Positions 2,982 to 29,198 of a stretch of DNA of 64,000 bases are shown here, in pieces. Position numbers and translations under genes: made by a program. Positions within the stretch are counted from its first letter, which is position 1, and every line of letters starts with the position of its first letter. Location of the stretch: contig NC_011687.1 of the NCBI RefSeq assembly GCF_000150955.2, forward strand, positions 372,001-436,000, read 5' to 3'. Origin of the DNA: Phaeodactylum tricornutum CCAP 1055/1 (Eukaryota > Bacillariophyta > Bacillariophyceae > Surirellales > Neidiaceae). The notes under the pieces were generated by a model. That model saw only the letters and a list, made by a program, of their open reading frames with translations, ran no database searches and had not been told where the DNA came from.

Positions 2982-5900
2982 TCAAGAATTCGCGAGAGAC
3001 CAACCCATGACTGCCTCACAATGTTGATGAAACAAAGAAGACTCACTCATCTTGGTAAGAAAGTCAGCAATCTGGTCTTCAGAGTCAACATGTTGTATTG
3101 TGATATCTCCATTGTCTACGTGCTGTCGGAAGTGATGGTACTTGACGTTGATGTGCTTCGTTCTTGGCCTCATCTTCGGAACTAGTGCTATTTCGATAGC
3201 GCCCATGTTGTCGTCGAAGGCTTTGCAATGAACCGTAGGAACTGTAACTGAGATATCGAACCCCAGAGAGGACATTTCCTTTGCCAATCCAATTAACGGT
3301 AATGCCGTTCTTAGTGCCGTGCTCAGACTCACAAACTCAGACTCTGTTGTTGATAACGAAATCTCAGTTTGTAGTTTCGACTGCCACGTAACTGGGCAAC
3401 CTGCATAGAAGATGGCGAACCCGGTCCTTGAACGAGCTGTATCGGGATCGTCGGTTGCTTCCTCTCGGTCCCAATTGCCTGAAAAATCCGCATCTGCGTA
3501 GACCTCGAAAGACTCATCTTTTGGTCGTAAGATGATGCCTTTGTCTCTGGACGCTAGCAGATATCTTCCAATCCACTTTATCGCTTTCCCATGTTCTGCC
3601 CTTGGATCAGCAGAGAAACGGGCACACTGATGCACAGCGAACGCAATGTCGGGGCGAGTCGACTTCTCCAGGTAGTTGAGTTTCCCGATAACCGACCGAT
3701 ATTCGAAGTGCTGATCGAATGGAGCTGAATCAAGATGACGACGAAGACGGTTCGTCGATGATGCTGGGGTCGTTTTGGTTGCAACACCGGGGATGTTTAG
3801 CCTCAAATCGTCTAAGATAGAATTGATAAGATGTGGCTGTGTTAGATGAATTTCGTCACCCTTTCGATCGATTTTCACTCCCAAGAAGTCGGATACTCCT
3901 GGTTCGCTAGTCAATTTTAGCCCTGAATTAGCCATATCGATCTTGATTTGTTCGAGTTCTTCCAAGTCTGGACCTGCAAGTATACTATCGTCGGTGTATA
4001 GAACGTATACGGATCGCCCGCGGTAAAACAAACATTGATCATGCTCACTTTGCTTGAAACCGCATTCCTGAAGTTTAGAAACTAAATGTTGATTCCAAAC
4101 TCGACCGGCTTGTTTGAGTCCGTAATAATTCTTCTTGATACGTAAAACATATTCCTCGGAATTGTCGTGTTCAACTGTGAACCCTTTAGGAATTTTCATG
4201 AACATTTCACATTCTGCTTCGGCTTGAGTATAGGCTAAAACAAAATCAATTTGCTGCATATGCCAGCGGTTGATAAGTGCAAGGGTGAGAATGTAACGAA
4301 TTGTAGGCCAAGATGCGACTGGCGCGTATGTCTCCCAAAAGTTGACTCCGTGTATTTGTTTTGACCCGTCAAATGCTAATCTAGCTTTCCACTTGTAAAC
4401 TTCGCGTGTAGAAATGCGTCTCTTCCTTTTCATTGACCAGACTGCAGGTATGATAGGAGTACCTTGTGGAACTAAACGTCTAGGGTATAACTCCCACAAT
4501 TTGTTTTCTGTGTGAGCCTGAACTTCTTCCTGCATTGCCTTTAGAAACTGTGCCTTGTCGGGTTGCTTCATTGCTTCGTGAAGATACATTGTGTCGGGAT
4601 CTGCTGACGCTGCGAAAACCTCAAGTGGGTGTAGATCATCTTGAGGATCTATGTCAGCACTTTGATATGCTATCGTCTCGTATGCTACGAAACTAGGATT
4701 CTTCTGTTCCAAGTACTGTAAGTACTTCTCGGTAACCACTCGTTGTCTTGCTGATCGCCTCAGAGGCGACCCGTCTTGCTGCGTTACGATTGGTGGATGT
4801 GAATTTTGAATCTGTGAGTCCTGCTTGCCTCCCTCTGAAGCTCCGTCTTGAACAATGAGCTCTCTATCTGTGTCATTTGCTTCATCCGGAAAAATTGTGT
4901 CCGTTCCCGTTTGCGGCGGCGTTTCAGCACATGCTGCTCGCTCTGAAGGTTGTGTTGCTGGAGTTTTCGATTCGCCACTGCTTAATCCGATTCCGAGCCT
5001 AAAACCACACTTTGATTGCCATTGAGATTTTGGCGGTCGATTGCCAAAACTAGCTCTCATAGTTTGAAACGTAGAGTCTACTCGAATGTGGAACTGTGGT
5101 GAGGTAAGTCCCGTACCGATATCTAAGACCAACGGAACCGTCCTTGCATGCTGTGGGCTGAGACCCAGGTACACGCCGACTCTTGAACGATCAGACCACT
5201 TGTCGATATTTTGACCTGCTTGCATTTGTCGATCTAATGTGTAGATTGGTGCACCAAATGCGTAGTAATGTGCCGGGTTGAAGGCTACTTTGCTCTGAGC
5301 GAATATTTCGATTGGAGGAACGGATCCCCTTAACGATGGCAAATGATTGTGTAGCTCATTCGCCATCCGTAATGCGTACGGCCATAGATGTGAGTCTATT
5401 GCGTCAGGCCATCGCTTCGTAGCATGTATGAGCATTGTTCGAGCGTGATCTTGGAGTTCTCGGATGCGACGCTCGGCTATCCCGTTCTGGAAATGGGCAT
5501 TGACTCCGCAAAATGACAAAGTTTGTCTGTCTTCCTTGACGGCTTCACGAAACTTGTTATCCGCAAAGATGCCGTTGTCGGCGTGATAGTGTTTAGTAAC
5601 TACTCCGTGTGACCTTGCATACCTTTCGAACGCATGCTTGGCCTGTATTGTTTCCTCTGCTGATGTCCCCTTTTGTACGTGGACGTAGCTAAGCCGAGAA
5701 AAGTTGTCAACGAAAACGGTTGCGGCGTGGTACCGCTTTAACGTAGGTCTACCGCGAAGCTGTGCAATATACCCTGGCGTTGTTGATACCAGTTGGTCTA
5801 CAGAGATGCACTGTCCTGGACCGTTGACCTTGTGAATTGATCTTGTGGATGCTGTAGATGATCCCTTAGTACGCCAGGGCCTGCGAGTGGCTTTGCCGTA

Positions 5901-7193
5901 GAGGCAGCTGGTGCACAGTGGAATTTGACATTCCTTTAGAGAGGCTGGTAAGAGTCCGACTTTAGCAAGCATACGAATCTTGGTCATTGATGCATGTCCA
6001 AGTCGATGGTGCCATCTCAAAAATAGCGCTGATGGGTTCCTTTGTGATTCTAGATCTCCTTCGTCCTCTATAACGGAGGTTGTTGCTTCCGTACCATCGG
6101 CTTTGTTGGATTGTTCCGGGCCGTCGAGAGAGAAATCTGTATTTATTGGACCCGGTCGTAGAGTACTCGGAGCGCCAGTTTTGAAGTCCGCAACTTCGTT
6201 GTCGAAGCTGGAGTGAGCTTCATGGTATTGATCATCAAGATCATCTCCATTATCCCCCTCCTCGCTGTCGGATACGTAGGAGGAGTTCAAAATGAGTGGT
6301 TTGACATCAAGTGCTTCGTTGTCGATAGAGCAATCGGTACAAAAAGCATTGAACTTCTCGTAACCGGCAGCGGTTGCGAACGTGGCGACGTTGCTCCCTC
6401 TAGCGTCCAACGGTATTGTCCGTCGGTGTCTTCGTTGTTCCCACTCAAGAACGATGCAGTCCTCATATGTTACACATCGTGTGCCCCTAGGTAGAGGTCT
6501 TATGTCCCTTGCCGACTGGGACCAATGCTGTGGTGATAGGAGCCGAGTCGGTGACGAAGGGATTAGGAACGACTTTGGAAGTCGTATTTTGTGAGGTTTG
6601 CCGTGGTCGTCCGCAATTGTCCATTCAATCGTTACCTCGAACATTTCCGTGACCTTGACGCCGCCGATCCCTTTTACCTTTCGCATAATTGGCTTCATGG
6701 GTCCGATGCAGTCGGCTTCAGAATTGGTAATGCTACGGGTTGCACAATTGTCGACATGAATTTGTTTTGAGTCGGTGTCGAAACCGACTTGATGAGCTGC
6801 TCTGAGAGGAGCATTTGCGCTCATTGTCACTAAGGTGGCAATGGCAACGGCCCTTGCTATGTTGAACCTTGGTTTGCGTTCCGGTTTGTGGGAGTAGTGT
6901 CTAGTTGAATGAGGTCTGCGTCTTGTTGTTCGAATTGATTCAATGCATTTGACTACCCTTGATCCCATTTCGTAAAGCCGCCTTCTGATAGGTTTCCAGC
7001 GCGTCTTGAGTCGCTTGATCCATTTTGATTGCGGTTGGTAGTTTGGTGGGTAGGAGTTGGGTTCAGGCAGTTCATACAAAGCTATATAACTATATATGAC
7101 CACCGTCATTAAAACTCTAATCCGTGCTGTGTCGATGAGCGACTGAATGATTTGGAGCGCAAATTTGATAATAACTGTTGGTAGTCCATGCAT
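2982..7193 (-). CDS. Copia pol polyprotein (protease, integrase, reverse transcriptase, RNase H)
   Basis: One open frame of 1403 codons. In order: a divergent aspartic-protease-like region, a GAG-pre-integrase zinc-binding segment (about 395-430), a retroviral-type integrase core with the D-D-E pattern, a copia reverse transcriptase with a YTDDS active-site box, and RNase H at the C-terminus. The integrase before reverse transcriptase order fixes the family. It follows gag by about 25 bp; how the two frames are expressed together cannot be told from sequence alone. Confidence 0.93.
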   Translation of the reverse strand: MHGLPTVIIKFALQIIQSLIDTARIRVLMTVVIYSYIALYELPEPNSYPPNYQPQSKWIKRLKTRWKPIRRRLYEMGSRVVKCIESIRTTRRRPHSTRHYSHKPERKPRFNIARAVAIATLVTMSANAPLRAAHQVGFDTDSKQIHVDNCATRSITNSEADCIGPMKPIMRKVKGIGGVKVTEMFEVTIEWTIADDHGKPHKIRLPKSFLIPSSPTRLLSPQHWSQSARDIRPLPRGTRCVTYEDCIVLEWEQRRHRRTIPLDARGSNVATFATAAGYEKFNAFCTDCSIDNEALDVKPLILNSSYVSDSEEGDNGDDLDDQYHEAHSSFDNEVADFKTGAPSTLRPGPINTDFSLDGPEQSNKADGTEATTSVIEDEGDLESQRNPSALFLRWHHRLGHASMTKIRMLAKVGLLPASLKECQIPLCTSCLYGKATRRPWRTKGSSTASTRSIHKVNGPGQCISVDQLVSTTPGYIAQLRGRPTLKRYHAATVFVDNFSRLSYVHVQKGTSAEETIQAKHAFERYARSHGVVTKHYHADNGIFADNKFREAVKEDRQTLSFCGVNAHFQNGIAERRIRELQDHARTMLIHATKRWPDAIDSHLWPYALRMANELHNHLPSLRGSVPPIEIFAQSKVAFNPAHYYAFGAPIYTLDRQMQAGQNIDKWSDRSRVGVYLGLSPQHARTVPLVLDIGTGLTSPQFHIRVDSTFQTMRASFGNRPPKSQWQSKCGFRLGIGLSSGESKTPATQPSERAACAETPPQTGTDTIFPDEANDTDRELIVQDGASEGGKQDSQIQNSHPPIVTQQDGSPLRRSARQRVVTEKYLQYLEQKNPSFVAYETIAYQSADIDPQDDLHPLEVFAASADPDTMYLHEAMKQPDKAQFLKAMQEEVQAHTENKLWELYPRRLVPQGTPIIPAVWSMKRKRRISTREVYKWKARLAFDGSKQIHGVNFWETYAPVASWPTIRYILTLALINRWHMQQIDFVLAYTQAEAECEMFMKIPKGFTVEHDNSEEYVLRIKKNYYGLKQAGRVWNQHLVSKLQECGFKQSEHDQCLFYRGRSVYVLYTDDSILAGPDLEELEQIKIDMANSGLKLTSEPGVSDFLGVKIDRKGDEIHLTQPHLINSILDDLRLNIPGVATKTTPASSTNRLRRHLDSAPFDQHFEYRSVIGKLNYLEKSTRPDIAFAVHQCARFSADPRAEHGKAIKWIGRYLLASRDKGIILRPKDESFEVYADADFSGNWDREEATDDPDTARSRTGFAIFYAGCPVTWQSKLQTEISLSTTESEFVSLSTALRTALPLIGLAKEMSSLGFDISVTVPTVHCKAFDDNMGAIEIALVPKMRPRTKHINVKYHHFRQHVDNGDITIQHVDSEDQIADFLTKMSESSLFHQHCEAVMGWSLANS

Positions 7194-17582: not shown

Positions 17583-17996
17583 ATGACAATAACAAAGAAA
17601 GAAAAAACACATTCACCGACCGAGCGACACACACAGACCCCAAACACAACGAAACACATGCGCAAGCAAACACACCACGTTTCTTTTCCGTTTGCGTTCG
17701 AAATCGATTACGATTCCGTTCTCTCACTTCCGGTGTTTCTCCGACAGACAGGCAATTCGTCCAAGGCAATAGTTCCCCCCACTTCCACCAAAGCAACCAA
17801 CCAGCAAAGTACCAACAACAACAAAAGTACCAGCAACAGCAACAGTGCAAGGAACACTGGTGATTGCGGTTGTTACCAGTCCAACAGGTTTCTACGACGC
17901 GTCCCGTTCCGTTCCGATCTGTTTCTCCATCCAGAGTCGGGTGTGCGTGCGTCTTGTCCCGTGGACTGTTTCTTGGTTGATCGACGAACGAACAGT

Positions 17997-20201
17997 ATGG
18001 GCAACCAAGTCGGCACACTGGGAGAGTCCGGGACGACAATGGTGGTAACGAAACGTCCCCACACGCATTCGTTCGCGGCGCGTCCGTCGCTATCGGGGTC
18101 GTTGACGGCGCCCGACGTGGACGGGACGGATTCCAGTTCCGTCGTGTCGTCCAGCACGACGGATTCGACCGATCACGACAACGTGCCGCTCACGGTGTCG
18201 ACATGCCGCCCCCACGGCACGGCACTCGCATTACAATCACCGCAGCAATCACAATCACTGCCGTTGTTACGACCACCGCACGACAAAGTTGAATCCGTCA
18301 CCTGTTCTCCGTCCGGAATTGTGCGTTTGTTATCCCGGCGAGCGAGTCGGCCCGAGTCTTTTGTCTTTCTCGATGACGACGAGGACAACGACGATACTAT
18401 GCACAGTCAAATTGACAATCACAATTCCGCCGACGACGACTCTTGGATGGTCTCCGCGTGTTCCCCACGCAACTGGAAATCATCCTGGGCGGGAGGAACC
18501 GCAACCACGAACGAGACGGGACGCTCGTTCCGAAACAGGGACCACCACCACAACTACCCAGACTCGTGCGCACCGAGAACGCCGTCTCGGTCGAGTTCCT
18601 GGCTTTCCTTCACCGCGGATGCCATGGACTACACGGACGCGGAATTGGCCCTGTCCGGTACCCAACCAACCTACGAGTCCGACTTGGCCCGACCACGTCC
18701 CGTATTCATTGTTACCACCGCGGCCTTGCCCTGGATGACGGGAACCGCCGTCAACCCATTGCTCCGGGCAGCCTACCTAACTCTGCGTAACGCTGCTCGC
18801 TGTCCACATCAGGATTGCGACGGAACCAACAATAGTAGCAACGCCATCACCAATAAAACCAACACAAACACGACGGTCACGCTGGTCATTCCGTGGTTGG
18901 AGTCCGCCGCGGATCGAGTCTTGCTCTACGGCGACGCTTGGAAACACGCCACCACCGCCGTACAGGAAACATTCATACGCGAATGGCTCGTCACCCGTGC
19001 CAGCCTAACCTCCCAACAAGCTCACAGTGTGGTCATTGTCTTTTACCCCGCCCGCTACCATCACGGACTTTCCAGTATCTTTGCCATGGGCGATTTCTGC
19101 GAACGACTCACCGTACCGGACGACGCCGTCTGTTTACTGGAAGAACCCGAACACATCAATTGCTACCGGGCTCCGGGCAAAACATCCTGGCGGAAAAAAT
19201 TTGCTCACGTCGTGGGGATTATCCACACTAACTACAAAGCCTACGCCTCTCACCACTACAGTGGTTTGCTTACCGGACCCTTGGTCGGGGTGTTGTCCAG
19301 TTGGTGTGTACGGGCCTATTGCGATAAGGTCATCAAGTTAAGCCCGGTTCTGCAAACCTACGCGGCCGAAAAGGAAACTGTTTGCAACGTCCACGGAATA
19401 CGGGACGAGTTTTTGCACACGCCGGCACCGACCGGTCCCAAAATTTATTTCTTGGGAAAGCTACTGTGGGCCAAGGGACTGGACAAGATGTTGAGGTTGC
19501 AGTATGCCTACCGCAAAGCGACCGGATCGTACTTTGCCATGGACGTCTTTGGGAGCGGGCCGGAGGAAAAGGAAATACGAAAAGCATTCTTGGGAGAAGC
19601 ACTGGAAGACGACGATGTTTCCTCGGTGGGGAGCAAGTCCACTTTTTGGAAACGACGGGTTCCCTTACCGGTACAGTTTTTGGGCCGTCAAGACCACGGG
19701 ACCATTTCGACGGACTACAAAATCATGGTCAATCCGAGTATCACCGAAGTGCTGTGCACGTCGACGGCCGAAGCTGTTGCCATGTCCAAGTTTGTCATTC
19801 TACCTACCCACCCGTCGAACGTATTTTTTGAACAGTTCCCCAACTGTCTCTTTTACGAAACACCCGCCGACTTTTGCCGTGTCCTGCAACACGCCACGTC
19901 GCACAATCCGGAACCCCTGACACCGGAGTGCCGAGACGTACTAAGCTGGTCCGCCGCCACAACACGCTTACTGGAGGCGGGGCAAGTGTCGGAACGGGAC
20001 GCCGCCCGTCGAGACCGCATCGGACAAGGAGACGAACGCATTGCCGAGATGCATTACAAAATTTTTCAAGGTCACACCGGAGACGTGCTGCGCAAGGTTC
20101 TCGGTGGTGGACCCGTGGCCGATCAGTTCAAGTACGAGTCGCAAATACGACACGAGGCAAAAACGGTCCGATCCACGTTGACAGTCGTGCCATGTGGATG
20201 A
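17997..20201 (+). CDS. Digalactosyldiacylglycerol synthase (DGD1-like, GT4)
   Basis: Transfers galactose from UDP-galactose to monogalactosyldiacylglycerol, making DGDG, a main plastid membrane lipid; in plants it acts at the outer plastid envelope. The C-terminal half matches DGD1 closely: YFLGKLLWAKG, DVFGSGPEEKE, then NPSITEVLCTSTAEAVAM (GT4 donor-site region) and HPSNVFFEQFPNCLFYETP. The N-terminal 180 residues are Ser/Thr/Asp-rich and less typical. The frame is open from an ATG at 17583, but residues encoded before 17997 look like translated leader (Thr/Asn/His-rich), so I prefer the ATG at 17997 (MGNQVGTL, 734 residues). The upstream start (872 residues) cannot be excluded and matters for targeting. 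Confidence 0.88.
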   Translation: MGNQVGTLGESGTTMVVTKRPHTHSFAARPSLSGSLTAPDVDGTDSSSVVSSSTTDSTDHDNVPLTVSTCRPHGTALALQSPQQSQSLPLLRPPHDKVESVTCSPSGIVRLLSRRASRPESFVFLDDDEDNDDTMHSQIDNHNSADDDSWMVSACSPRNWKSSWAGGTATTNETGRSFRNRDHHHNYPDSCAPRTPSRSSSWLSFTADAMDYTDAELALSGTQPTYESDLARPRPVFIVTTAALPWMTGTAVNPLLRAAYLTLRNAARCPHQDCDGTNNSSNAITNKTNTNTTVTLVIPWLESAADRVLLYGDAWKHATTAVQETFIREWLVTRASLTSQQAHSVVIVFYPARYHHGLSSIFAMGDFCERLTVPDDAVCLLEEPEHINCYRAPGKTSWRKKFAHVVGIIHTNYKAYASHHYSGLLTGPLVGVLSSWCVRAYCDKVIKLSPVLQTYAAEKETVCNVHGIRDEFLHTPAPTGPKIYFLGKLLWAKGLDKMLRLQYAYRKATGSYFAMDVFGSGPEEKEIRKAFLGEALEDDDVSSVGSKSTFWKRRVPLPVQFLGRQDHGTISTDYKIMVNPSITEVLCTSTAEAVAMSKFVILPTHPSNVFFEQFPNCLFYETPADFCRVLQHATSHNPEPLTPECRDVLSWSAATTRLLEAGQVSERDAARRDRIGQGDERIAEMHYKIFQGHTGDVLRKVLGGGPVADQFKYESQIRHEAKTVRSTLTVVPCG

Positions 20202-20385: not shown

Positions 20386-23300
20386 CTAGTTTGCTTCTAG
20401 CACTGCGTGTTTGTAAATGTCGTTCGGGACGGCAACTTCCGGTATGTTTCTGACGAGCGCATTCCATTGAGGCGTTTCGTTCCCTTCGTAGTGCCAAGAG
20501 CGTACGTCTGTAGGCAAACCGTGCGCGCCCAACTCACCCCAATAACACTCTCTCCATGTAACGTCGCGGAAGATCTTGGGCTTGATGCCGAAGAAATCCA
20601 CTAGCAAGCGGGTCTCCCGTATCCGGACGACAACGTTGTCCACGCGCAGCCACAATCGGGCCAGGACGTATGCGCACGAGGGCATGACACGCAGTTTGAC
20701 GGAGAACTCGACCTGTCCATTGTCGTGTAAATCATCTTCAAATAGAATAATCTCGTCAAAGAAAAGAATTGGAATGGAAGTGTCAGTCAACAGCTCGGTG
20801 CGCATGCCTGAGCTGTCGAGTTCTGTCCATTCACCCCCTTCTACCTTGCCGCAAAACGGTGTACTGAATGTCCAATCGTAGTGAAAGATGGAAGCCACGT
20901 CATTTCCTTCATCACCGTGATACTTCTTGGCTGCCCACAAAGAAGCATCTTTTGACTTCATCACAGCAACTCCTCGGCTGCCAATACTAGAACGGGTCGC
21001 TATGTCTTGATGCGCCACAGCCCATTCTTCGAGTACGTCAAGAACATCCCAACTCAACCACAAACCGTGGCCTTCGAGCGCCACATGTGCCGCAGGGAAA
21101 ACCATTTCGGGTAAACCAATCTTTCGACGCGGTCGGGGAAAGGCGCGAGACTGCGCCATCTCTTCTAAACTATCACCCATTTCCTTGTACCAGGCTTCAT
21201 CCCCTATTGGGCCCTGAGACGTACCTATGTCGAATCCAGCAATTGATAGTCCTACCAGAGCCTTTTCCCAGGTCAGAGGCTTGGCATATTTCTCCAATAC
21301 AGTCGACACGTGTCGTTTTTTGGAAGTATCGTTTGGTATGGGAGAAGCAACAGCAGCTAGTTTTGATATAGAGGAGCCAGCTGGCGTACCGTCGGTCGAG
21401 GACTCTTCCGGCGCATCGTCGACTTCGTTGAGTTCAGTTTCTTCTTCAAAAACAAGAATCCCCTGTGATGCCTGCATAAATTCTTCTTCTTCCTTTTCGC
21501 TATCAAGTTCTTTCGCGATGCTTGCTTCGGCCTCGAAAATATCGTCTTCCTCAATCTCAGATTCATCGGCGCATTCAATAGAAGCGTCTTCGGGTGCGAT
21601 GACGTTTTCCCGTTTTAGCTCTTTGGCATTGCAGCCAGAATAACTATCGGTGTCACTTACTTGATCCCCCTTAGTGACCGCGTTGGTGCTCATTGCGGTG
21701 TTCTCGCTTTGCTCTTGTTTAGCCAACATAGCCGCTGTTGCAGCAACGGTGGCGCCAGCCACAGCCCCAGCCGTCACCGCAGCGTCCATGCTCCTTTTCT
21801 GCTTCTCTTGAAGGTCGATTCCGAAATCTTCCTTGAGCGTTCCAGCTTCATTCGATATAAAGAACGCTTCCTGGAACCCCCAAAAGGATGTATCACCATC
21901 CGCTTTCACTACAAAGAATTGCGGGTACGCACCCCATCTCTTCGACAGGCCAAACAATCGGTTGCGTTGGACTCGATTGTGCGGATCCGACCCGTCCACT
22001 TCAGTGAACGGAATTTTCTTGGCAGTCAAAATCGCTGTGACCTTGTTCTGCGTCGCCATGTGCTGTGGTGAAAGCGCCTGGGACGATACCATGACTAGCA
22101 CGTGATCGCGACCTTGCAATGCTTCAGCAGATTGCGCTCCGGTCGTTGCGTCATCTTCGTCGACCTTGGCACTTTCGGGCAAACCCAACTCTTCCTTCAG
22201 AATCCCCCTTTTGAAGGCGTCGAAAAATGGTTGTAAGCCTCCCCAAAACACGGTTTCGCCAGACAAATCTTCAAAAAAGAACTGTGGATAAGATCCCCAT
22301 TCTTGCGATACTTGGAAAAGCTCATCGCGCTTGTCCCGATTCGCCACATCCGTTCCGTCAATCCTCTCAAATGACAAGTTGTTCAGCGCCAAAACAGTCA
22401 TAGCCTCTTCCTGTGCTAGGAATTGATCTTTGTAATCCGAATGACTGCAGTAGAGTACGAGTAGTTTGGAGCCGTGCGTCCGTCGAGGCTGAAACTTGAT
22501 TTCGTGCGGCTGTCCCCTAGTATGGTCACCATCATCGTTCTTGCCCTTGTCCGGAACCTTGTCTTCTGAGACTGGAACTGCCCCATTGAGTAGGCTCGTC
22601 ATATGTCCCGGGCCGAGCGCATCGCTTTCCTCCGGTGGGCCAACAAACCCTAAATCACGTCGTAGCGTTCCCGCCTCGTTGGACGCAAAGAGCCGGCTCT
22701 TGTCACCCCAAAACACGGGTGTTTCCTTGTCCATCGAGACGACGAATATTTGCGGATACGATCCCCACAGATTGGATAAACCGAATAATTTGTTGCGGGT
22801 CGTCCGTTGATCTGGATCGGACCCGTCTATAGTGGTGTAGGGCAAACGGTGGGCCCGCAAAATTGCGTCGGTTTGATCTTGGAAGGCCGTTTGTTCGCGC
22901 GACGAATTTTGCCGCGATACGAGTACGAGCAATTTGCGTTGGACTGATGCCGTTGCGCTGGGTTGCCAAGCGGACAAGTGCCCGTTGTGGACTCCCTGCT
23001 GTGGCGTTGTAGAAAGCAACGACCGGGGCGCTTCCACGGGGCCCGTCACGACGGTTTCGTTGTCCACTGTACCCGCGTCCGACGCCAGCGTCGGCTGGGA
23101 TGCGTTGCTCGGTCCCTCAGCTTCCAGCCACGTTTCGTGTACGTGAACCCATCGCCATCGGGAAGCCTTATTGATGAGGAGCGCGGTAGAGACCCGACCG
23201 AATTGGTGCAGCACCACTCCACTGCCATCGTTGCTTGGTGTACTGGCCGTCGGCTGCTGCTGCCAGGATTGCCACTCTTCGTAGGTCACGAGACACTTGT

Positions 23301-23598
23301 TGTTGTCATGCCACTGTAATTTGGTGTTGTATATATCGATTTGGAAGACACGATCTCGGTAACAACCATACTTGTCGTCAAGCTGTGACAGCAGTGCCGA
23401 CCGACCTTTCAGGACTTGTCCATTCGGGGCAACGTGCGCAAAGTCTGGCTCCAAGCGACGTTTCAGTTCCGTTGTAATATTGTCCTTCTCTCGCTTCCCT
23501 TGGAACCAACTAACAAATAGTCCGTGCAATTGCTGGACCTGACGTTCACATTCTAACGTCAACGAGTCGCCTTCCAGCTTACTCGAAAGCGAACTCAT
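20386..23598 (-). CDS. Fusion protein: SnoaL-like domain, three thioredoxin-fold repeats, TIP41 domain
   Basis: One uninterrupted frame of 1070 residues from the ATG at 23598. Residues about 15-160: SnoaL/DUF4440-like alpha-beta fold. Three repeats of about 95 residues (about 220-315, 376-468, 497-590) share VDGSDPxxRxxRxxLF, then WGSYPQFF and FWG, with SNEAGTL closing the outer two; this resembles the SH3BGR/glutaredoxin-like fold without a CxxC pair. An Ala-rich hydrophobic stretch (about 604-625) and an acidic linker (about 670-740) follow. Residues about 827-1065 are a full TIP41 domain: LPEMVF, DWTFSTPFCG, ILFFDE, DDLHDNG, VKLRVMPS, LRVD. TIP41 proteins bind PP2A-type phosphatase catalytic subunits in TOR signalling and usually stand alone at about 270-350 residues. 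The function of the added modules is unknown. Domain calls are by eye. Confidence 0.82.
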   Translation of the reverse strand: MSSLSSKLEGDSLTLECERQVQQLHGLFVSWFQGKREKDNITTELKRRLEPDFAHVAPNGQVLKGRSALLSQLDDKYGCYRDRVFQIDIYNTKLQWHDNNKCLVTYEEWQSWQQQPTASTPSNDGSGVVLHQFGRVSTALLINKASRWRWVHVHETWLEAEGPSNASQPTLASDAGTVDNETVVTGPVEAPRSLLSTTPQQGVHNGHLSAWQPSATASVQRKLLVLVSRQNSSREQTAFQDQTDAILRAHRLPYTTIDGSDPDQRTTRNKLFGLSNLWGSYPQIFVVSMDKETPVFWGDKSRLFASNEAGTLRRDLGFVGPPEESDALGPGHMTSLLNGAVPVSEDKVPDKGKNDDGDHTRGQPHEIKFQPRRTHGSKLLVLYCSHSDYKDQFLAQEEAMTVLALNNLSFERIDGTDVANRDKRDELFQVSQEWGSYPQFFFEDLSGETVFWGGLQPFFDAFKRGILKEELGLPESAKVDEDDATTGAQSAEALQGRDHVLVMVSSQALSPQHMATQNKVTAILTAKKIPFTEVDGSDPHNRVQRNRLFGLSKRWGAYPQFFVVKADGDTSFWGFQEAFFISNEAGTLKEDFGIDLQEKQKRSMDAAVTAGAVAGATVAATAAMLAKQEQSENTAMSTNAVTKGDQVSDTDSYSGCNAKELKRENVIAPEDASIECADESEIEEDDIFEAEASIAKELDSEKEEEEFMQASQGILVFEEETELNEVDDAPEESSTDGTPAGSSISKLAAVASPIPNDTSKKRHVSTVLEKYAKPLTWEKALVGLSIAGFDIGTSQGPIGDEAWYKEMGDSLEEMAQSRAFPRPRRKIGLPEMVFPAAHVALEGHGLWLSWDVLDVLEEWAVAHQDIATRSSIGSRGVAVMKSKDASLWAAKKYHGDEGNDVASIFHYDWTFSTPFCGKVEGGEWTELDSSGMRTELLTDTSIPILFFDEIILFEDDLHDNGQVEFSVKLRVMPSCAYVLARLWLRVDNVVVRIRETRLLVDFFGIKPKIFRDVTWRECYWGELGAHGLPTDVRSWHYEGNETPQWNALVRNIPEVAVPNDIYKHAVLEAN

Positions 23599-24132: not shown

Positions 24133-24548
24133 CTCCCTACACATAATAGTAGTCCTGCTACTTCAACGGCTTGGGATAGAATAGAAGCTCTTCCTTGACC
24201 GCAATGCCCGGTCGGAAATGCGTCTGATATCGCCGCAAAATCTCTTCATTGATTGCCGCATTGTCCCTCTCGGACTCCTCGGCGTACAGCAGGTCATGCA
24301 TCCAAAGCTGCCCCCGCAACGCAATCTCCTTCGCCTCCCTGTCGTGCTCCACGATCCATTTCATCTGCGTTTCCACGTCCGATAGATCGTCCCGCAAAGG
24401 CACGTAGTGTACGTACGGTTCCAAGAGCTCTTCCATGGCCCAAGACGAAATTGATGGCTTTGTGATCATTACAACCGAGTTGGAGTACAATCCCCATTTC
24501 AATCCGGTAGAGACATCGTTGCCTTCCATGAATATCAACGCCTTGTAC
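24133..24548. repeat. Near-identical 3' block of GT90 copy A
   Basis: 416 bp matching 27297-27712 at constant offset 3164 with no indels and nine mismatches by eye (about 97.8%). It spans the last 130 codons plus 25 bp after the stop. Flanking coding sequence is far more diverged. Confidence 0.9.
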
Positions 24549-25908
24549 TTCAACTGATCTTCCATGGAAAGACTTTCTCCACTGATTGTGATGTTGTCGA
24601 TAATTGGTGGCAGCTTGCTCGAGTCCAAAATTGTGGTAAACTTGGCATCCACATAGGACGAATTGTGGTACATCAACACTAGTCGACAACGCGGATTTTT
24701 CAGGCAGCGTTCGCGTGATGATGTTTCCGGGTGCACGAGGCCGGTAGTCGTACCCCGAAACACGGCCGCATTGCCTTTTTCTTCCCATGGAATATCCTTC
24801 TCGGGAACACTCGAAACCTTACCATAGTGCCGCTTGACCCCCATTTTCCAGATGATTGGTTCCAGGTCTTGATTATTGGTTGGCCGTGTCTCTAAAGTGG
24901 CGCAAGACTTGGTCGATATCTTCAGCATCAAGTCTCGTCCGGTCACGTTGTCCCATGCTCGTCTCACTTTTTTGAAGTGAGGTATAGAAGGTCTTTGCTT
25001 TTGACGAGTCGGGGATCCGAATTCATTCATGATTTTCGAAGCCAAGGAATCACCAACTTGAGCAAGCAGTACTGCCAGGTCTCCGGTTTGATTGGTTTGC
25101 TTTTGAAACGGTAGAAGTAAATTGTCACGGAGCTCTCTACAGTAAACTCTTTGCAAGCTTTTTCGCTGTTCGGGACGGGGATTGAATTCGCAAAGGTCGA
25201 GAGTGGATTTAGTAAGAACAAAGACGAGATCAGTCCCAGGCAGAGAAGTTGCCCGTACTGCCACCGACAAGCTGGTGTCCGTAAGCAGTGTTTGGCGCTG
25301 AAAAGAATACGAAGGAAGAAATATTGCCGCTTCGACTCCATCTTGTTCGTCCGCCGGGACAGCATGTGTTAATAACTGTGACCCCGCGACTATCGTCTTG
25401 CCTTCATGCTTCTCGTTTCCAACGTACTCAACAATTTCTAGCAACTCGCTCTCGTCACAGGGAGGCTCGTACCAGGATGACATGTAGAACCGCACTCGCT
25501 GAAAAACTGTTGGAAATCGATGCGCTCGAATTACCGAGGAAGCATACGACGAAATGGCCTTGTTTTTAGGAGCGATTGCTTTGTAGTGAACAAGCTCCTT
25601 ACAGCTTCCCTGTACCCCGTTTACGAACTAAATTTTAGAACCAGCTGCATTTCGATCCCTGCATAAAGCATGCACCATTCTTTACTTACAACACTCTTGA
25701 TTCCGTTTGAGAAATTGAGGTAAGGGTGTATGAATCCTCCGAAGCGATCCGAGGAATGTGAGCAGGAGATATCGGACGCGCGTACACGAGGATCAATGGG
25801 AGCGGAATCATTCCACAAGTTGAAACAACCGAGAATTATCACCGTGTAGATCATAGCAAGCCTCGAAGTGTGCCTTCCGCTCCCATACGGATTATCAATG
25901 CACGGCAT
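24158..25908 (-). CDS. Glycosyltransferase family 90 protein, copy A, two exons
   Basis: A CAP10/POGLUT-type glycosyltransferase, expected as a type II membrane enzyme of the ER or Golgi. Exon 1 is 25690-25908 (73 codons), intron 25628-25689 (62 bp, GTAAGT...TTTAG), exon 2 24158-25627; both junctions are phase 0 and give 562 residues. Exon 1 encodes a short cytosolic end and one membrane anchor (about residues 17-32). Exon 2 has the GT90 landmarks AVFRGTTTG and EGNDVSTGLKWGLYSNSVVM near the C-terminus. The acceptor substrate cannot be inferred. The last 130 codons are almost identical to copy B at 27322-29198; the rest matches only moderately. Confidence 0.87.
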
Positions 25909-27296: not shown

Positions 27297-27712
27297 CTCC
27301 CTACACATAATAGTAGTCCTGCTACTTCAACGGCTTCGGATAGAATAGAAGCTCTTCCTTGACCGCAATGCCGGGTCGGAAATGAGTCTGATATCGCCGC
27401 AAAATCTCTTCATTGATTGCCGCATTGTCCCTCTCGGACTCCTCGGCGTACAGCAGGTCATGCATCCAAAGCTGCCCCCGCAACGCAATCTCCTTCGCCT
27501 CCCTGTCGTGCTCCACGATCCATTTCATCTGCGTTTCCACGTCCGATAGATCGTCCCTCAAAGGCACATAGTGTACGTACGGTTCCAAGAGCTCTTCCAT
27601 GGCCCATGACGAAATTGATGGCTTTGTGATCATAACAACCGAGTTGGAATACAATCCCCACTTCAATCCGGTAGAGACATCGTTGCCTTCCATGAATATC
27701 AACGCCTTGTAC
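27297..27712. repeat. Near-identical 3' block of GT90 copy B
   Basis: Partner of 24133-24548. Both block edges are sharp: identity falls abruptly just after GTAC on the coding side and just beyond CTCCCTAC on the 3' side. Confidence 0.9.
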
Positions 27713-29198
27713 CTTAGCTGCTCATATCTCTGGAGATGACTGCCATTTATAGGGATACCGTCGATCGCTAATGGCAGGTTGCTCCTGCTGAGTATGTTGG
27801 TAAACTTTGCATCCACGAGAGACGAATTGTGGTAGTCCAACACAAGCCGACAGCGCTGATTTTGACGACAACGCTCGCGAGCCGGCATTTTTTGGTCAAA
27901 ATCCCCAGTAGAGGTACCCCGAAACACAGCAACATCCCGCTTCTCTTCCCAAGGTACGTCCTCACTGGGGACGTCCTCCACTCCTTTGTAGTGCCGCTTG
28001 ATTCCCATTTTCCAAATAATTGGTTCCAGTTTCCCGCGGTTAATTCGTCGTGTTTGTAAGGTTGAGCAGGACCTAGGTGATGCTTTCATTAGGGAAACTC
28101 TTGCAGTCACGTTATCCCAAGCAAGCCGTACTTTAGTAAAATGAGGTACAGTAGGTTGCGCAGAGTATCCATGTGGCTTTCCAAAATCGTCCATAGCTCT
28201 GGATGACAGGGCGTCGCCGACTTGCGCAAGTAACACAACCGAGAGCTCGTTGTTTTTTGAAGTGTTGGTTAGGCCAATTTGGTTTTGATAAGGCAGTAAT
28301 AATGTGTCTCGAAGTTCTGGACAATAGATGCTCTCCAAGATTTTCTTTTGGTCTGGTCGGGGATTAAATTCGCACGAATCGAGAGCAGATTTGTCCAAAG
28401 CAAATACGACGTCGGTATCGGCCCTAGCTGCTCCCTTGAATATAATGGAGCTGGATATTTGTGGGGATTGTACGTGCCGGTGGAGGGAGAAGGAAGGAAT
28501 GAATTGTGTCATACTGTCATCTTTTTGCTCCTCTCCGGTTTCGTTGGCCGCTGTGCTGCCTTCATTGCCCCTGCTACCAACATACTTGACAATTTCGAGC
28601 AATTCGTCCTGATCGCATGGTGGCTCGTACCAGGATGACATGTAAAATCGGACTCGTTGATCCGCTGTTGGAAAATGCTTCGAGAGCAGCGCAGAAGAGA
28701 GATTTTTCGACAGGCTCTCGCTTTCCATTTTAGATAAAGCCTCAGCCGATTTTACCTCCTGAACGGTGAATATGGAGTCTTTTGATGCATCTGATCGCGG
28801 TTGTAGTGCAGGGGAAATTGTCCTTTTTGACGAGGAATTTGCGTTATTAGGAGTGGTACTTAGATTGCTGGGAGAAGTGAAGTTTTCGTTGCCATTCTGC
28901 ACCACCACAAAAGAATTTTGACGAATAAGACCGAAAACTTTTCAATTCTTTTGCATTGCACCCACTGATCCTGACTTACACCTTTGTTTCCTTCGTGAGT
29001 ATCATTGCGGTAGGGGAGAGGAAAGCTTCGGGAAAGACTCGAGGACTGCGTGCCAGAGTTATCTGAAGATCGAATTGTTGGGTTGATTGGAGCGGAGTCA
29101 TTCCACAAATTCAAACCGACAAGAATGAGCACCAAACCGATCATAGCAATCCTTGAAACTAGCCTTCCGCCCCAGTGGTGATGAGCAAGGCAAGTCAT
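27322..29198 (-). CDS. Glycosyltransferase family 90 protein, copy B, two exons
   Basis: Tandem paralogue of copy A in the same orientation. Exon 1 is 28980-29198 (73 codons, the same length as in copy A), intron 28897-28979 (83 bp, GTAAGT...GTGCAG), exon 2 27322-28896; phase 0, 597 residues. The ATG at 29198 aligns with the copy A start; an upstream GTG is not used here. One membrane anchor lies at about residues 16-34, followed by LNLWNDSAP, shared with copy A. Exon 2 begins with about 70 extra Ser/Asn/Thr-rich stem residues absent from copy A. GT90 landmarks AVFRGTSTG and EGNDVSTGLKWGLYSNSVVM are present. Substrate unknown. Confidence 0.87.

Follow-up and report, generated by a model that had tools for sequence, protein, structure and literature searches.

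The window analysed here, 64,000 nucleotides of Phaeodactylum tricornutum CCAP 1055/1 (contig NC_011687.1, positions 372,001 to 436,000), encodes on its minus strand a protein of 1,070 amino acids in which an N-terminal NTF2-fold domain, three SH3BGR-like repeats, an acidic linker and a complete TIP41 domain follow one another in a single frame. We classify it as an orthologue of TIP41 whose architecture is new. The genome searched comprises 27.45 Mb in 88 contigs, and the window sits in the contig that we call C19. The following features were identified (window coordinates):

20386..23598, minus strand: whole coding frame, 1070 aa, with no intron needed
23119..23589, minus strand: NTF2-fold domain at the N-terminus (residues 4-160), containing the motifs YEEWQ and HVHETW
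23032..23058, minus strand: residues 181-189, a short recurring sequence containing ETVVTGP, C-terminal to the N domain (pattern against shuffles)
22648..22935, minus strand: SH3BGR-like repeat 1, residues 222-317 (named structural match)
22183..22467, minus strand: SH3BGR-like repeat 2, residues 378-472 (our own repeat profile, predicted structure)
21820..22104, minus strand: SH3BGR-like repeat 3, residues 499-593 (Pfam, our own repeat profile, predicted structure)
21334..21819, minus strand: acidic linker, residues 594-755
21427..21480, minus strand: recurring linker motif around F[LM]...xGILxFEE, residues 707-724 (pattern against shuffles)
20389..21285, minus strand: complete TIP41 domain, residues 772-1070

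The frame is intact between its ATG (23598) and its stop (20386), as an earlier note made from the letters of this DNA had described it (one frame, without stop or intron). For independent bases of the window's composition, the chance of so many open codons is ~1e-23. The start codon is consistent with several homologues that open with a similar MSL..KLE.D.L sequence. A whole-protein search, in which the 7993 candidates sharing most words were scored, retained 49 relatives. All 49 carry TIP41 by precomputed Pfam, 48 carry the N domain and 35 at least one repeat (0 to 4 per protein), as detected with N-domain and repeat hidden Markov models (HMMs) built iteratively on these same proteins. P0032, the sole relative without the N domain, opens with a repeat and is possibly a fragment.

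Two relatives, P0014 (label MMETSP1065, taxid 265537, Entomoneis paludosa) and P0015 (label 'Transcript_27961 ... type:complete'), each encode the N domain, three repeats and TIP41 in one frame, and both are transcriptome-labelled; MMETSP is a transcriptome project. Because of these labels, the question of a single message is answered for the relatives' genes, as distinct from the Phaeodactylum gene. Both proteins run on past TIP41, and LDYLEV is the C-terminal end of each. For the Phaeodactylum gene, whose frame was read from genomic DNA, two or three adjacent genes might in principle have been merged through an assembly error, a missed intron or a missed promoter. Against this stands the joint occurrence of N domain and TIP41 in 48 of the 49 matches, P0014 and P0015 included. 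We consider such an artefact extremely improbable and rejected it on the relatives with the same one-frame architecture. The frame is real and the architecture conserved.

The same domain order, which the earlier note had proposed to seek in other diatoms, occurs with three repeats in Entomoneis (Amphiprora) paludosa and Epithemia clementina and with one repeat in Mayamaea pseudoterrestris, whose protein has no linker motif. The three genera are placed in Bacillariophycidae by taxonomy and are pennate diatoms. The note knew of no such architecture, and our literature search (TIP41, SH3BGR, diatoms, PP2A/TOR, domain architecture and fusions, with most subscription journals outside its reach) likewise turned up no published account among the papers listed; with 49 relatives, however, the protein is not a one-off.

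A Pfam scan of the whole protein returned 4 families at E up to 1. TIP41 matches residues 832-1022 (E 5.7e-37, 127.3 bits against a cut-off of 25), and by structure prediction and fold comparison the TIPRL fold spans the whole C-terminal domain, so that the complete TIP41 domain of the earlier note is borne out. This is the only TIP41 copy found in the genome. TIP41 is usually a small separate protein that regulates PP2A-type phosphatases. The diatom protein shares with TIP41/TIPRL (PF04176; 5d9g, 5w0w; ~270 aa) the fold, the full domain and all 8 residues of the site for the PP2Ac tail; unlike them, it has 1070 residues and carries, ahead of TIP41, four other folded domains and a linker with a recurring motif.

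According to PMC4973239 and PMC5741625, TIPRL attaches to PP2Ac by the latter's C-terminal tail, a tail also present in PP4 and PP6, and perturbs the active site, and TIPRL and alpha4 take apart unmethylated PP2A holoenzymes. Residues named in PMC4973239 were placed via alignment, the human number being the chain number + 10. In the patches of the peptide site, 8/8 residues are identical to TIPRL. Mutations implicate 5 further residues nearby: T138 is unchanged here, and M, Y, I and E stand in place of I136, F180, M196 and D198. The opposite face retains D71, and N68, placed by anchor, is D. K968, R970, L979 and R997 (human R200) are invariant in a 32-row alignment. PMC4973239 reports that none of its TIPRL mutations abolished binding to full-length PP2Ac, so the conserved site supports the family function and is not proof of binding.

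Possible partners are encoded in the same genome. Phosphatase frames end in TPEYFL (C16, L025), PPDYFL (C15) and VPYFL (C17), and human PP2Ac ends in TPDYFL (PMC4973239). A genome scan with the Thr-Pro-Asp tail pattern found no phosphatase; the PPDYFL frame came from a looser tail pattern and the TPEYFL and VPYFL ends from a protein search. From these ends and general likeness we infer a putative assignment of the frames to PP2A, PP4 or PP6. Nearly matching copies of a PP2A-like phosphatase gene that was read in two pieces lie on different contigs, at C12:6071-6845 and C47:4486-5260. TAP42/alpha4 has one match in the genome. Given the TIPRL fold, the kept PP2A-tail site, and the YFL-ending phosphatases and TAP42/alpha4 in the genome, we think it probable, with moderate confidence, that the gene encodes this organism's TIP41 orthologue, placed on a scaffold through which phosphatase inhibition and recycling would be localised and possibly multivalent.

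The three repeats were correctly recognised in the earlier note as SH3BGR/glutaredoxin-like. Pfam SH3BGR matches one stretch, residues 502-590 in repeat 3 (E 1.3e-5, 25.7 bits against a cut-off of 21), and structure prediction with fold comparison gave a named structural match for repeat 1. Repeats 2 and 3 have the same order of helices and strands in a high-confidence structure prediction, and repeats 1 and 2 are recognised by our own HMM, itself seeded with repeats 1-3. Like SH3BGR and SH3BGRL3 (PF04908; 1t1v), the repeats have a glutaredoxin-like fold without the redox cysteines; unlike them, they stand in tandem inside a large protein, with FWG and YPQFF and without PLPPQIF. In place of that SH3-binding sequence stands YPQIF or YPQFF. 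PMC8356473 describes PLPPQIF for SH3BGR, SH3BGRL and SH3BGRL2, and says that SH3BGRL3 has no canonical SH3-binding sequence, so the absence of PLPPQIF here is not decisive for family membership.

We aligned 80 repeats, 72 from the query and its relatives and 8 from other loci of this genome. The strongest columns are the Pro of YPQ and the Leu of LF (79 each), followed by the last Phe of YPQFF (78) and the Gly of FWG (77). The CxxC pair, whose absence had been noted earlier, is found in 0/80. The earlier note had also raised the possibility that the scaffold senses redox state, that is, a redox-regulated phosphatase regulator whose repeats would read the thiol state. The thioredoxin-family fold fits this idea, and Cys 384, the single cysteine of repeat 2, follows the first strand and may lie near the place of the glutaredoxin active site. 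Nevertheless, repeats 1 and 3 of this protein are free of cysteine, 8/80 repeats have any Cys within their first 20 residues and no printed alignment column exceeds 10/80 Cys. We regard redox sensing as very unlikely, and rejected it as the main explanation on these cysteine counts. Deep nodes of the repeat tree are weakly supported, so no order of repeat birth is drawn.

The module is also found elsewhere in the genome, where repeat 3 has at least 11 matches: 3 here, 3 in one frame on C30, and at least one each on C8, C7, C13, C18 and C1. Domain company at these loci was read from frames, without intron structure. The C30 frame (L022) joins a Sacchrp_dh_NADP (saccharopine-dehydrogenase-like) domain to three SH3BGR-like repeats. 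The C18 frame (L020) combines the module with part of a kinesin motor and a long stretch that is coiled-coil-like by eye, the C1 frame (L021) with GRIP, and the C7 (L018) and C13 (L019) frames with IQ motifs. In the C8 frame (L017), the module is accompanied by a C-terminal CVIL, resembling a CaaX box. Pfam SH3BGR is above cut-off at C30, below it at C8, C18 and C1, and gives no match at C7 and C13. The two IQ genes (C7:1014941-1015216 and C13:12729-13004) are near-identical and lie no more than ~15 kb from the ends of their contigs, pointing to a recent duplication. For a redox-dead module carried by motors, tethers and scaffolds, the role of an adaptor is the best interpretation. The earlier expectation that binding is likelier than catalysis for the repeats is supported.

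By structure prediction and fold comparison the N domain has an NTF2-like alpha+beta fold, with PA1314 (1tp6) and the CaMKII hub as the closest solved structures. The SnoaL/DUF4440-like label of the earlier note thus holds as a fold class and fails as a family: SnoaL and DUF4440 are both absent from the 4 Pfam families found at E up to 1. A CaMKII hub family is not among these 4 either. The sole Pfam match of the N-terminal part is S6PP_C, below cut-off (E 0.003, 17.9 bits against 34.4). Profile searches therefore place TIP41 and SH3BGR (repeat 3) above the Pfam cut-off and leave the N part below it. The N domain appears to be single-copy, since the genome search returned only this gene. In 22 aligned rows, columns W31, F53, G60, H152, E155 and T156 are invariant.

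Relatives of the N domain were identified in prokaryotes by scanning bacterial and archaeal genomes with residues 1-165. Of the 27 pattern stretches found, 12 encode relatives with 25-34% identity over most of the domain (L036-L047; 11 bacterial records and one Heimdallarchaeota metagenome-assembled genome). Most are short frames; L037 has 391 aa. WVHVHETW was one scan seed, so its invariance in these 12 is partly selected; a YEEWQ-like sequence is also common to them, and the nearest scan seed overlaps only its end. S6PP_C is the best Pfam family in 6/6 of the prokaryotic relatives scanned. In these six frames of the 12, no TIP41 or SH3BGR Pfam match was found, a difference from the diatom protein that accompanies the likeness to PA1314 and its short prokaryotic kin. 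A bacterial origin of the N domain is plausible on this sequence evidence. The N domain might alternatively be a SnoaL/dehydratase-like enzyme, with its product controlling the TIP41 part, or a sensor that does so through a small ligand. The N domain has no match above a Pfam cut-off, 1/6 prokaryotic relatives exceeds one (S6PP_C), and an NCBIfam scan gave nothing usable for this protein and no match for four prokaryotic relatives; we consider this role distinctly unlikely. The CaMKII hub shares the fold at 12% identity and is attached to a kinase, which is absent here. The likeness is one of fold; a ring-shaped oligomer as in the hub is hypothetical here.

The linker is acidic, as previously noted, with Asp and Glu making up 37% of residues 656-730, and the pLDDT of its structure prediction is < 50 at 605-697 and 711-741. 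The pattern [DEN].{0,1}[ED]T[VIML].TGP occurs in 30/68 N-bearing proteins and 0/13600 shuffles, and G[IVL]L.[FY][ED][ED] in 40/68 and 12/13600; the shuffles ignore kinship of the proteins and rule out composition alone as the source of the motifs. A looser linker-motif pattern was found in 46/119 proteins. None of the PP2A-B56, PP1 and clathrin-box patterns strictly fits the linker motif.

Two further searches, one of which scored only the top word-sharing candidates, extended the set to 191 proteins including the query. The N domain was detected in 68, a repeat in 39 and neither in 119, although most relatives are metagenome proteins whose frames may be cut by introns, so that proteins with TIP41 only are possibly overcounted. 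Thirteen of the 191 have the N domain, linker motif and TIP41 with no repeat detected, and are interspersed among repeat-bearing proteins in the TIP41 tree (140 near-complete domains, several inner nodes weakly supported). In this tree, one lineage including Nitzschia and Cylindrotheca mixes TIP41-only proteins with proteins of N domain and TIP41. P0048, P0133, P0135 and P0137, which have the N domain and TIP41 without motif or repeat, are sister to the motif-and-repeat clade (support 1.00 for the joint clade, 0.92 for the other side). Inside that clade, a repeat-less group with N domain and motif (P0037 and P0039-P0047 among them) adjoins one-repeat proteins, which makes a loss of repeats in this group probable; P0031 possibly represents another loss. 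P0039 encodes N domain, motif and TIP41 in one frame, with an acidic stretch at the repeat site. We read the architecture as built by stepwise accretion, with the proviso that intron-cut gene models could hide N domains, and the repeats appear from these sequences to be evolutionarily optional.

This history bears on whether the protein is an ordinary TIP41 with passive passengers, doing its usual job while the extra domains are tolerated and play little role in phosphatase control. Variation from 0 to 4 repeats and their loss within the family fit this explanation, as do the proteins of Skeletonema, Mediolabrus and Thalassiosira (centric diatoms), which have TIP41 alone with no N domain or repeat detected. 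Conversely, the N domain is retained in 48 of the 49 full-query matches and has six columns invariant in 22 aligned rows, and the linker motif persists in repeat-less relatives such as P0037 and P0039-P0047. We judge passive passengers unlikely, if not negligibly so.

In the localised TIP41 orthologue that we prefer, by analogy with TIPRL, the TIP41 domain would bind the phosphatase tail and, with TAP42, inactivate or dismantle PP2A-type complexes. The NTF2-fold domain may hold chains together as a dimer or larger hub, or bind a ligand, and the SH3BGR-like domains may act as docking adaptors that position the protein at certain structures of the cell. A flexible tether and extra docking site could be provided by the acidic linker and its recurring GILxFEE motif. 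The outcome would be phosphatase inhibition and recycling that is local and possibly multivalent, not diffuse. In a bolder version, TIP41 of raphid diatoms would have become a hub for phosphatase recycling, both oligomeric and multivalent. The NTF2 domain, of bacterial derivation, would gather several chains as in the CaMKII holoenzyme, the repeats would dock to motors, Golgi tethers and calmodulin-binding scaffolds bearing the same repeat, and the TIP41 arms would capture and switch off PP2A, PP4 and PP6 locally. Taken jointly, this full chain of claims is quite unlikely.

Also present in the window are a glycosyltransferase-like frame at 17583-20201 on the plus strand (PF00534 match weak and below cut-off), tail to tail with the TIP41 gene with 184 bases between their ends, and two nearby minus-strand frames that match glycosyl transferase family 90 (24158-25495 and 27322-28908), perhaps a local duplication. 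A minus-strand retroelement frame with RVT_2 and GAG-pre-integrase domains (2982-7193) is Copia-like.

In summary, the only TIP41 found in this genome is the tail of a multidomain scaffold, the parts of which suggest localised and perhaps multivalent inhibition of PP2A. The relatives, with TIP41 alone or with the N domain, the linker motif and 1 to 4 repeats added, form a natural series in which each addition is testable. This organism uses the redox-dead, SH3BGR-like glutaredoxin fold more than once, as a module that shares frames with domains of the kinesin, GRIP, IQ and dehydrogenase kinds. In humans, SH3BGRL3 attaches to the neck of myosin 1c, which bears IQ motifs (PMC8356473); with IQ motifs and the module sharing a frame here, these genes may offer a handle on the poorly understood SH3BGR family.
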